Shown piece by piece: positions 4,755 to 21,355 of a DNA stretch of 22,643 nt. The notes below the pieces were generated by a model. The model made no database searches. It saw nothing but the letters and a program-made list of their open reading frames with translations, and was not told the origin of the DNA. Numbering within the stretch: the stretch's first letter is position 1; every line of letters begins with the position of its first letter. Origin of the DNA: a virus; IMG/VR virus record IMGVR_UViG_3300032242_000693, positions 1 to 22,643 of that record. One strand, 5' to 3'. The translations under genes and the position numbers were made by a program.

Positions 4755-5584
4755 AGTGACTCCCTGATTTTAATTAAACGGATCATCATAGCTTCATCTT
4801 CTTTAGTGTAGGCCGCTTCGATCTTACGAAGTAACTTGTGTGCCTTTTCGCTCATCTTTCTAAGTTCGGCAGAATCTTTACTACTACCCCAACTTAATTT
4901 CCCACCATTAGCCGCACGACTCGCTTCACAGTAAGCAGTCCAACCGCTTGCTTCATAAGGGTCTGGACGATTACGATATGTAGTAGTCCACCAGGTATAC
5001 AGCTCGATAATCTCGCGGGCGGCTAATGCTTGATTAGTTGGCTTGCCATAAAGTTCGTCGGTAGGTTCAAGCCCCATGTCTTCATTCATAACTAGATCAG
5101 ATGCCCAACGTAGATATTCTAAGCCAGCCTCTGGACAGCGCCAAGTGCGCAGTCGTAACCAACCACTGCGATACCAGGGAACATTGAATTTAGTTTTAGC
5201 TTCGTCACTCCACATACAGTGGTGCCACGCTTGTTCTACTTCAACGAAATCCACAAGCTCTTTAAAAAGACAAGGGAGAAACCGATTACCAACGTCACAC
5301 CAACTGCCAGGGCGGATATCACGAGGGTCGGCAGTAAGAGCATGACTCTTACTAATCCAACGATTGTTGATATAGTATCTGATATCATTTAATTTGTCCA
5401 TAGGATAGTTTACAAAATTTTGTACTGCATCTAATGCTTCTTCAGCTAGCCAATAACGAAAGTTGTGTCGCATTTGGGCAGTAGTATGCCACTCGTCCCA
5501 TTGTTCGCTAGTGCCCGCACCTAGCTTATTAGTACCACGAATCCAATCTGCAAATTTTGAACATGACCAATAATTACTTCTCAT
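4745..5584 (-). CDS. Conserved hypothetical phage protein, Trp-rich (279 aa)
   Basis: The largest unknown of this operon. It is unusually rich in Trp and Arg: NYWSCSKFADWIRGTNKLGA at the start, a middle with IRYYINNRWISKSHALTADP and RDIRPGSWCDVGNRFLPCLF, and later EIIELYTWWTTTYRNRPDPY. The sequence matches my memory of a highly conserved hypothetical protein in T4-like marine phages; no activity is known. AAGGAT about 7 nt before the ATG is a good ribosome site. A 45-aa gene ends one base upstream of the ATG. No membrane segment is present. Confidence 0.88.
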   Translation of the reverse strand: MRSNYWSCSKFADWIRGTNKLGAGTSEQWDEWHTTAQMRHNFRYWLAEEALDAVQNFVNYPMDKLNDIRYYINNRWISKSHALTADPRDIRPGSWCDVGNRFLPCLFKELVDFVEVEQAWHHCMWSDEAKTKFNVPWYRSGWLRLRTWRCPEAGLEYLRWASDLVMNEDMGLEPTDELYGKPTNQALAAREIIELYTWWTTTYRNRPDPYEASGWTAYCEASRAANGGKLSWGSSKDSAELRKMSEKAHKLLRKIEAAYTKEDEAMMIRLIKIRESLWT

Positions 5585-18324: not shown

Positions 18325-19196
18325 TAGAACTGATTAGGGCTTTCCAAGTAATCAATATATTCATTGATACCGGTAGTTATATCTCTTTGGTCACTAGGAT
18401 CAAATCCCAATGCTGTAAGTGGTGTTAGGTCAGCCTTAGTAAACTTTTGATATTGTGCTTTTAGATCTTCGGGCATGTCGATCAATTCAATTTTGGCCCC
18501 GGTTCTAATGCCTACCAACATTGCCACTGTTTCAAAGCTAGTCGGAATACCAGTACCCAAATCATAAACTCCAGGACGGAAATTCTTTGCCATCCAATAG
18601 CAGGCCTTGCAAACATCTTCTACAAATATAAAATCTCTACGCAGTTGATCACTGCCTTTAAAGACCTTAATTGATCCTTCTGCGCTTTGATTGAACCAAT
18701 GATAGATAGTCGATGCCATACGTCCTTTATGGTATTCGTTAGGGCCATAGACATTAAAGAATCTAAGGCAAGCGGTAGCAGGACTGAGTTCTAATTCACT
18801 CAAGCTCTTACTAAAGGCATATTGATTTAGGGGGCCGTTGCCGTTGCCATATACCGAAGCCGAACTAGCGAACACAAATGGAATAGCGTTACTACGACAA
18901 AAGTTAGCCCACTGCCTTGTGCTTAGTACATTTTGTTTATAGACTTTTGACCAGTCATTGGCCAAAGTATCACTAATAGCACCCATGTGTATGACTGCTT
19001 CAACTTGTTGAGGATTAGCTAATAGAATCTCAACTTCATTAGTACTAATAAGGCTAAGTTCTTTGCCTACTAGATTTTTAAATTGCTGTGGATGCGGTAA
19101 ATCATCTACTCCGATAACATCAGTTATCCCTAACTTATTAAGATAACCAACCATCACTGAACCGATGAATCCGCCTGCGCCTGTAACTATAATCAT
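18321..19196 (-). CDS. hldD: ADP-L-glycero-D-manno-heptose-6-epimerase (291 aa)
   Basis: A short-chain dehydrogenase/reductase fold with NAD(P)-binding GAGGFIG (6-12). The catalytic Tyr-Lys pair is Y126 and K130 in NQYAFSKS, with Ser residues in ASSASVYG (110-117). The blocks LRFFNVYGPNEYHKGRMAST, GSDQLRRDFIFVEDV and KAQYQKFTKADLTPLTALGF are specific to HldD (RfaD), which epimerises C6 of ADP-heptose for the lipopolysaccharide inner core. It is about 20 residues shorter than the E. coli enzyme. Sixteen nt separate it from tRNA-Arg(UCU), without ribosome site. It likely alters or supplements host core sugar synthesis. Confidence 0.93.
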   Translation of the reverse strand: MIIVTGAGGFIGSVMVGYLNKLGITDVIGVDDLPHPQQFKNLVGKELSLISTNEVEILLANPQQVEAVIHMGAISDTLANDWSKVYKQNVLSTRQWANFCRSNAIPFVFASSASVYGNGNGPLNQYAFSKSLSELELSPATACLRFFNVYGPNEYHKGRMASTIYHWFNQSAEGSIKVFKGSDQLRRDFIFVEDVCKACYWMAKNFRPGVYDLGTGIPTSFETVAMLVGIRTGAKIELIDMPEDLKAQYQKFTKADLTPLTALGFDPSDQRDITTGINEYIDYLESPNQFY

Positions 19197-19212
19197 AATA
19201 ATATTTAATATG

Positions 19213-19287
19213 TGGTCCGGCCACCAGGAATCGAACCTGGATCTATAGCTTAGAAGGCTACTGCACTATCCATTGTGCTATGGCCAG
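19213..19287 (-). tRNA. tRNA-Arg(UCU)
   Basis: Acceptor CTGGCCA/TGGCCGG with encoded CCA. Anticodon stem GTAGC/GCTAT with loop CTTCTAA gives UCU. The T-loop is TTCGATT. It lies 16 nt before the hldD start codon. Confidence 0.94.
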
Positions 19288-19299
19288 GTTGTTGATGAA

Positions 19300-19373
19300 T
19301 GGAGCGGGATAAGAGAATCGAACTCTTGACCGAAGATTGGAAATCTGCTGTTTTACCATTAAACTAATCCCGC
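19300..19373 (-). tRNA. tRNA-Gly(UCC)
   Basis: Acceptor GCGGGAT/ATCCCGC and encoded CCA as in tRNA-Gly(GCC). Anticodon loop TTTCCAA gives UCC; the stem GCAGA/TCTTC has one mismatch. The T-loop is TTCGATT. Confidence 0.93.
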
Positions 19374-19382
19374 AATTAAAAG

Positions 19383-19766
19383 TACCAGGGGCTATGCCTT
19401 CTTACTATTCCGGATACTCGGATGTTGCCTTGTACACTTTATAGGTGCTTTCTGTGGCGCTTGAATCCACGATAGCCCAACTCTTCCTGGCCGGTCCTTG
19501 TGCATGGTCGACATTGACAAGTATTTCGGTGTTCCAGTGTAGCTATTCAGAAAGCACGTATAAAGTGTCTAGCTACTCACACCACATGAGCCCTAGACTG
19601 AGCTGTTACTCTGTCCACTAATTTTTCCTTCTGGAGAGGTATAGTTCCTCACCTACGGATTTCTTCAGGCTCCTGTCAACCAGGACTCTAAGGTAGACCG
19701 TATGCACCCGGCAACTATGGTATCTTGCCTGACCCACTTTTAATCACGGAAAAGTGTAAACCGGGT
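19383..19766 (-). ncRNA. Candidate large structured RNA 1 (about 385 nt)
   Basis: No credible ORF fills this stretch between tRNA-Gly(UCC) and the 48-aa gene. It is rich in complementary segments: a 20-nt helix with one mismatch (19435-19454 with 19548-19567); hairpins at 19567-19598, 19497-19521, 19636-19650, 19671-19685, 19698-19720 and 19735-19756; and a 6-bp helix 19665-19670 with 19727-19732. The 5-nt loop ACCCG at 19706-19710 can pair with 19762-19766 as a pseudoknot. The RNase P, tmRNA and group I/II core motifs that I know are not present. Strand is inferred from the neighbouring tRNAs. Its identity is unknown; giant phage ncRNAs such as GOLLD sit in similar tRNA contexts. Confidence 0.7.
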
Positions 19767-19912
19767 TATCTAGTTACTTTACGTAATAATTTATACCAAT
19801 AATATTTTAGGCCACGATAGGTCGGTAACCAATTAAACATATCTGTAGTGTAGCCTATATCCTTAGGCACATTACCGTATGCCTTGTCCAGCGTATCTTG
19901 TTGTTTTGACAT
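19766..19912 (-). CDS. Small basic protein between tRNA and structured RNA (48 aa)
   Basis: From the ATG at 19912 it reads MSKQQDTLDKAYGNVPKDIG, then TDMFNWLPTYRGLKYYWYKL and a basic tail. It is rich in Tyr and Lys, with no membrane segment. GGAG lies about 7 nt before the ATG, only 17 nt after the 3' end of tRNA-Leu(UAA). An earlier in-frame start would lie inside that tRNA. Its stop overlaps the start of structured RNA 1. Function unknown; the good ribosome site supports it. Confidence 0.72.
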   Translation of the reverse strand: MSKQQDTLDKAYGNVPKDIGYTTDMFNWLPTYRGLKYYWYKLLRKVTR

Positions 19913-19929
19913 ACAGTTTCTCCAATAAT

Positions 19930-20013
19930 TGGTGCCCGGAGCCGGACTCGAACCGGCATGCCCGAAGACGGGAGATTTTAAGTCTCCTGTGTATACCATT
20001 TCACCACCCGGGC
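19930..20013 (-). tRNA. tRNA-Leu(UAA)
   Basis: Acceptor GCCCGGG/TCCGGGC with encoded CCA. Anticodon stem GGAGA/TCTCC with loop CTTAAAA gives UAA. Class II with a variable arm CGTCTTCGGGCAT. It has its own promoter upstream at 20035-20063. Confidence 0.95.
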
Positions 20014-20148: not shown

Positions 20149-20175
20149 ATAAATGCTCTGCATCCCCCGGCGGTA

Positions 20176-20205
20176 ATTATAGTACATCAGAAATTTGGTC
20201 AGCAA
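20176..20205 (-). promoter_or_regulatory. Candidate promoter TTGCTG-N18-TATAAT for tRNA-Cys
   Basis: TATAAT (20181-20176) preceded at 18 nt by TTGCTG (20205-20200) on the minus strand. The -35 match is weak and the spacing one longer than elsewhere in the window. The predicted start near 20169 would leave a leader of about 20 nt to tRNA-Cys. Confidence 0.5.
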
Positions 20206-20372
20206 GTTTTCACTCACCAATTAGTCTTTCATCACACGTACCCTCCACCCGCTCCCCGACAGGGACCGCTCTCGTGTCGCTAACGGCCTTTCGGTTTAAA
20301 GACTACCACCCGTACATGTCACTGTACTTCTCATCGTGTGGGTCACACTATCCGGAGACACCCGGAACGTTC
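20190..20372 (-). ncRNA. Candidate structured RNA 2 (about 180 nt)
   Basis: This gene-free gap lies between tRNA-Ser(GCU) and tRNA-Cys. It has an 8-bp long-range helix (20222-20229 with 20298-20305) and hairpins CGACA/TGTCG (20257-20279), GTACA/TGTAC (20312-20327), GTGTG/CACAC (20336-20348) and TCCGG/CCGGA (20351-20366). CACACG (20233-20238) can also pair with CGTGTG (20335-20340) as an alternative. GC content looks higher than in nearby spacers. Ends and strand are inferred; the RNA would be released by processing of the flanking tRNAs. No known family is recognised. Confidence 0.58.
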
Positions 20373-21175: not shown

Positions 21176-21188
21176 AAAATGGTCATTT

Positions 21189-21355
21189 CCATTAAAAAAT
21201 AACATTACTGCCTATAGCATGGAACAAATTTCTGAGTGGAGTTCGATATTCCTCATAAGCCATTGTCCACGGTTGTCTCAGAAGGGTAAGATGGCCCTAT
21301 CCTTCATAAGTCTGTGCGTCCACAAACGATACCCGTTAATGTTATTTTTTAATGG
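21189..21355 (-). ncRNA. Candidate structured RNA 3 bounded by a perfect 19-bp inverted repeat
   Basis: CCATTAAAAAATAACATTA (21189-21207) and its exact reverse complement (21337-21355) enclose 129 nt without an ORF. The inner part adds TTCTGAG/CTCAGAA (21230-21236 with 21277-21283), GGA/TCC-type pairing nested within it and AGGG/CCCT (21283-21286 with 21295-21298). The right arm begins at the CCA end of tRNA-Glu, so in the minus-strand transcript the helix starts with the tRNA's own 3' end. It may be a stable RNA or a processing signal. No known family is recognised. Confidence 0.72.

Follow-up and report, generated by a model that had tools for sequence, protein, structure and literature searches.

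A structured RNA family with a pseudoknotted core and exchangeable 3' arms in phage tRNA arrays

Introduction

To our knowledge, few large structured RNAs of phages are known, GOLLD, ROOL and RNAs C and D of T4 among them; all of these lie by tRNAs, and we know of no job for any of them. RNAs C and D (species 1 and 2 RNA) are small stable noncoding RNAs from the downstream end of the T-even tRNA cluster, and ROOL is about 600 nt long. GOLLD has been described as a phage-borne, highly structured RNA that occurs beside tRNA islands and has a conserved end and a variable one, and ROOL as an RNA of phages and prophages that lies near tRNA islands and contains multiple pseudoknots (PMC12286853).

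The RNA described here, designated RNA-A, is encoded on the minus strand of a phage DNA stretch of 22,643 nt (IMG/VR record IMGVR_UViG_3300032242_000693), which as a whole is called the window in this report. Like GOLLD, RNA-A is phage-borne, highly structured and set among tRNAs, with one conserved and one variable end. However, many GOLLD members are longer than 800 nt, and it is the 3' part of GOLLD that is conserved, whereas RNA-A has a conserved 5' core of ~200 nt and a variable 3' arm. With ROOL it shares the location near phage tRNAs and a pseudoknotted fold. Among the T-even phages, the closest precedent is provided by the T4 RNAs C and D; RNA C contains near its 3' end a T-arm-like hairpin (CCGGGUUCGAAUCCCGG), as does the RNA-A arm type that we call M1b, although the two T4 RNAs, at 139 and 119 nt, differ from RNA-A in size. 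It is in the class of RNA, and not in its setting by phage tRNAs, for which these are precedents, that the novelty of RNA-A lies.

Results

An initial annotation of the window had proposed that a structured RNA of ~385 nt and of an undescribed class lies within a phage tRNA array at this locus. We observed that the exact minus-strand 19-mer GTGGACAGAGTAACAGCTC is present in 49 IMG/VR stretches, and that the sequence flanking it is plainly related among them. Two looser patterns matched 90 and at least 120 IMG/VR stretches, respectively; among the matches listed for the latter pattern, a handful were due to chance. At least 107 distinct full-length cores were gathered, and RNA-A is carried by more than 100 uncultured phage contigs, although many of the members come from related metagenomes, so that the sequences are not independent of each other. 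We based a covariance model, R1, on 31 sequences, all from a subgroup (class I) to which the window does not belong. This model matched the window from 19566 to 19766 on the minus strand at 136.7 bits (E 1.1e-42, R1 E-values being rough), and this segment is the conserved core; its 5' edge, at 19766, coincides exactly with the edge that had been drawn in the initial annotation. Also, loci fetched solely by their heptose-epimerase gene (hldD), with no motif used, yielded 6 further members, which scored 74–193 bits with R1. Accepted members score at least 57.8 bits, with the exception of a degenerate second copy in locus L219 (39 bits; positions 4814–5010, minus strand, a few nucleotides before a tRNA-Met), and the best doubtful matches elsewhere reach 17–18 bits.

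Neither the isolated phages nor the GTDB genomes that we searched yielded RNA-A. A gapped pattern matched 31 GTDB contigs, none of which has the P8 helix described below, and these are therefore taken as chance matches, including the one (L156) that reaches 16.9 bits with R1. BLASTN searches of 50,697 phage records with four variants of the core gave chance matches only. R1 found no match over the whole records of T4 (AF158101, E≤10), Vibrio phage 2.275.O, PA5oct and XacN1. A match of 17.9 bits in Sinorhizobium phage Phosso, which has no tRNA close by, was taken as chance. Also, we found no account of RNA-A in the literature searched, which mostly excluded subscription papers and preprints.

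The core is arranged, from 5' to 3', as an invariant CCCG tail, P2, P3, P4, a two-part P5, P6, a near-invariant sequence beginning GUGGACAGAG, P7 and a two-part P8, so that the minus strand indeed holds the six or more hairpins that had been claimed for it. In the class I alignment (31 members), 95.4% of the cells in modelled pairs are paired, and the covariation score is 0.326, as compared with 0.143 in shuffles. In the alignment of all classes (96 members), 95.1% of cells are paired as against 37–44% in slid controls, 39 of 44 pairs change on both sides, and the covariation score is 0.550 versus 0.191 in shuffles, a value that none of 500 shuffles equalled. This second alignment was fitted to R1 and so favours structure, yet its 879 two-sided base-pair changes are still far beyond what fitting should give. 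The test for covariation among homologues from phage metagenomes, which the initial annotation had called for, thus came out in favour of a conserved fold.

The individual hairpins, all on the minus strand, differ in how they vary. P2 (19750–19756 with 19735–19741) has two-sided changes at 6 of 6 modelled pairs; in P3 (19725–19729 with 19710–19714) the first four pairs all show such changes, and 95% of cells are paired. P4 (19706–19709 with 19691–19694) exchanges GGU/ACC for GGC/GCC, AGU/ACU and UGU/ACA. For P5a/P5b (19667–19687) the count is 8 of 8 modelled pairs, and for P6 (19647–19653 with 19633–19639) it is 7 of 7 pairs, with 88% of cells paired. The near-invariant motif GUGGACAGAGUAACAGCUC, which is the site of the 19-mer noted above, occupies 19600–19618 together with the small hairpin P7 (GAGU-AACN-RCUC). 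Support for P7 is thin because it is nearly invariant; in two members its closing U.G is replaced by U-A or C-G. P8a/P8b (19567–19598) is paired in 100% of cells, with two-sided changes at 9 of 10 pairs, and its loop, UGUGGUG (19580–19586), is invariant in our three alignments (A1–A3). This loop sequence belonged to both later search patterns, though not to the first, and all matches to the first pattern have it nevertheless.

The P4 loop provides the 5' strand of a pseudoknot, which pairs UACGG at 19698–19702 with CCGUA at 19654–19658, in the segment that joins P5 to P6 (minus strand). This pairing is strongly supported by covariation. Outside class I, 64 of 66 members form 5 or 6 contiguous pairs, and the variants include UAAGG/CCUUA, CACGG/CCGUG, UAGGAU/AUCCUA, CAAUGC/GCAUUG and more. 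Distinct combinations of the two strands pair in 34 of 36 cases, whereas 2000 shuffles averaged 8.5 and never exceeded 17; in this count the partner was free to slide by up to 4 nt, since the alignment register slips, and the shuffles were given equal freedom. For class I, our script counts 3 pairs, and by eye the pseudoknot has two runs of 3 pairs separated by a bulged A. The initial annotation had placed a pseudoknot elsewhere, between 19706–19710 and 19762–19766. The letters of these segments are complementary in the window, but two of the pairs are kept in only 28 of 93 and 42 of 91 homologues, respectively, and the pairing competes with P4; that proposal did not survive the comparison.

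Directly 3' of P8 lies a further helix, P9 (19548–19566 with 19436–19454, minus strand), which is the 20-bp long-range helix of the initial annotation and which closes an exchangeable 3' arm. We recovered that helix as 19434–19454 with 19548–19568 (21 nt, 95% complementary), and helices of this sort occupy the corresponding place, with a score of at least 13, in 72 of 99 loci, representing 34 distinct arm sequences, as compared with 0 of 297 shuffled controls. The contents of P9 differ by phage, with several unrelated modules of about 70–140 nt. In the window, P9 and the enclosed arm (19436–19566, ~130 nt) constitute a module, M1a, of the M1 type, which is common to 33 loci. As assessed by alignment of M1-type modules and with RNAalifold, M1 consists of an acceptor-like helix, inner stems with compensating changes (for example UAGC/GCUA, CGGC/GCCG and UAAC/GUUA) and, by the 3' strand, a T-arm-like hairpin. 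In the window this hairpin, with the loop UUCAAGC, adjoins the 3' strand of P9 at 19454–19470 (minus strand), where M1b relatives read GGUUCGAUUCC, a canonical T-arm. Two different arm modules occur in tandem in 6 loci (L037, L053, L091, L095, L183 and L190), which suggests that each module is exchanged as a whole. In 15 loci the core is followed directly by a tRNA; the arm, which is absent or very short in at least 15 loci, is therefore not essential. A separate, small hairpin module at 19374–19435 (minus strand), between the arm and the downstream tRNA-Gly, is 75–83% identical to stretches in 3 loci only. The ~385-nt proposal was thus correct as to the presence of structure, though not as to a single fixed fold of 385 nt, the conserved unit being the core of ~200 nt with its variable arm.

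The predicted fold energy of the minus strand, -127.7 kcal/mol, was not reached by any of 100 shuffles, but its z value of -2.4 is, when taken alone, modestly unusual. The plus strand is similar (z = -2.2), so that energy alone neither shows the strand nor proves function.

We compared RNA-A with known families by scanning both strands of window positions 19100–20000 (E≤5) and 12 homologous loci (E≤1) with all 4227 models of Rfam 15, using permissive filters. No family matched the window stretch at E≤5 or the cores of the 12 loci at E≤1, and this holds for the GOLLD and ROOL models also; apart from tRNAs and weak spurious matches, the scans of the window and its homologues gave only a tmRNA that lies separately in locus L043. 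Bacterial RNase P RNA resembles RNA-A in length range, pseudoknotted fold and tRNA context; no RNase P model matched at E≤5. The M1 arm has an acceptor-like helix and a T-arm topology like those of tmRNA and permuted tmRNA, but these models matched neither core nor arm, and we recognized neither a CCA end nor a tag reading frame. Group I and group II introns were rejected also, as no intron model matched at E≤5 and the flanking tRNAs are complete. By the tests run, therefore, GOLLD, ROOL, RNase P RNA, tmRNA, introns and the T4 RNAs C and D do not appear to be relatives of RNA-A. Given the failure of all these models and of R1 on the T4 genome, we regard the class as new: RNA-A is a family absent from Rfam 15, with a common fold that is supported by compensatory changes. 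The initial annotation had seen no plausible gene here, and we observed that an open frame runs through the core in only 6 of 96 members and that the length of the core varies freely (179–208 nt). With abundant covarying pairs, no match to a known family and no protein, its suggestion of an undescribed class is borne out. The element in L043 (13–295, minus strand), a contig which also carries RNA-A, is a true permuted tmRNA (RF04321, 97 bits).

All 13 tRNAs found in the window by ARAGORN lie on the minus strand, in agreement with the tRNA array that had been described, and in the loci analysed 1328 tRNAs are on the RNA-A strand and none on the other. In 39 of 85 loci the core starts at most 8 nt after the end of a tRNA, and in 54 of 71 the distance from the end of P9 to the next tRNA is at most 7 nt. 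RNA-A of the window is not flush with its neighbours in this way: 63 nt separate the arm from tRNA-Gly(UCC) downstream (19300–19373, minus strand), and 165 nt separate the core from tRNA-Leu(UAA) upstream (19930–20013, minus strand). The latter interval contains the gene for a conserved protein of 48 aa beginning MSKQQDTLDKAYGNVPKDIG (19769–19912, minus strand), which has tblastn matches in 23 loci and whose stop codon, UAA, directly abuts RNA-A on its 5' side; the longer frame that contains it had no match in PHROG. Downstream neighbours of the family include tRNA-Gly(UCC), which is the commonest (36 loci), initiator-type tRNA-Met (24), tRNA-Asn (6) and others, and the commonest upstream neighbour is tRNA-Thr(UGU). 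Within arrays RNA-A tends to occupy the downstream part, with a mean of 18.8 tRNAs before it and 5.3 after it (10 loci). Each of 17 contigs, the longest of 355 kb, has one strong copy, and beyond these the contigs gave just two sub-threshold matches of 12–13.5 bits. The gp23 capsid gene (T4-type) is present in 9 of 12 large contigs, and one gp23 protein encoded by a contig is ~65% identical to known jumbo phage proteins. Among array tRNAs, 98% encode CCA, and the commonest end is CACCA (325 of 1055). The order of RNA-A and the heptose epimerase gene varies: in four loci (L004, L005, L007 and L008) RNA-A comes second, ~20 nt beyond the end of the gene, and in the window and L003 it comes first; hldD of the window matches TIGR02197 at 252 bits, slightly below the cut-off of 274.6.

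Discussion

We consider it probable that RNA-A is a noncoding RNA gene of the tRNA arrays of T4-type jumbo phages, whose product is freed by tRNA processing, is stable and acts in trans. RNA-A would be co-transcribed with the array tRNAs; its 5' end would be set by cleavage after the upstream tRNA and its 3' end by the RNase P cut at the downstream tRNA. The predicted product consists of the pseudoknotted core of ~200 nt and an exchangeable 3' arm of about 70–140 nt, or two such arms in tandem in some phages, and it may act during infection, most likely on translation or on the tRNA machinery. A released trans-acting RNA is favoured over a cis element of the leader type by the close packing of RNA-A with tRNAs of the same orientation, by its presence as a single copy, by its varying neighbours and by its mostly downstream position, and the variety of downstream neighbours fits trans action better than the control of one gene.

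The best of the other explanations, although we think it unlikely, is that RNA-A is a cis-acting element of the array transcript that serves in antitermination, stabilization or processing, as do HK022 put or the EAR element. Its constant presence on the strand of the array tRNAs, its high degree of structure and its invariant loops would be expected of such an element. However, a 5' antiterminator should come first in its transcript, and RNA-A occurs mostly after the greater part of the tRNAs; furthermore, its neighbours change, and the contigs searched have a single strong copy whatever the length of the array. A second explanation, to which we give still less weight, is that RNA-A is a decoy or counter-defence RNA, the T-arm and stem of which mimic tRNA and so soak up RNases or host defences that cleave tRNA. 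A common view of large phage tRNA sets is that they respond to tRNA depletion, and in M1 arms a T-arm does stand beside an acceptor-like helix. However, the arms are of several types, of which M1 is just one, there are loci that lack an arm altogether, and the conserved core does not match the tRNA model. That RNA-A is a selfish or catalytic RNA within the array, such as a divergent intron or self-cleaving ribozyme, appears very improbable: its modular, recombining 3' arms look like insertions, but the flanking tRNAs are intact, no intron or ribozyme model matched at E≤5 and each contig has one strong copy. Chance structure in AT-rich intergenic DNA, with which a fold energy just 2.4 sd below that of shuffles could by itself be reconciled, is refuted by homologues in more than 100 contigs and by pervasive covariation.

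That the P8 loop stays invariant on a stem that varies freely makes an outside partner likely. CCA ends are recognized by base pairing in RNase P and T-box RNAs; by analogy, UGGUG of the loop might pair with the mature tRNA 3' ends CACCA, to which it is complementary, a tentative suggestion, and on balance a doubtful one, that is drawn from one invariant loop. We can also imagine, with about the same reserve, that the arrays are RNA islands with several trans-acting RNAs, namely RNA-A, the two RNAs described below and, in one relative, a permuted tmRNA, which would jointly handle tRNAs or ribosomes during infection; RNA-A might then use its invariant loop to read the 3' ends of tRNAs, and its exchangeable arms for different partners. 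With its defined fold, well-supported pseudoknot and natural arm variants, RNA-A is a compact subject for probing and structure work, and it offers a direct route to asking why phage tRNA arrays keep drawing ornate RNAs.

Other structured RNAs in the array

Two other segments of the window, both on the minus strand, correspond to conserved structured RNAs. RNA-B (20154–20372) has similar stretches in 28 loci, the best of which are 79–89% identical, and 25 of the 55 pairs assigned by RNAalifold show two-sided changes (19 sequences); no Rfam model matched it, save for a weak, sub-threshold overlap of tmRNA_permuted in locus L054. RNA-C (21187–21346), which has a long terminal stem, occurs in 13 loci at 77–89% identity, and 20 of its 52 RNAalifold pairs change on both sides (9 sequences).
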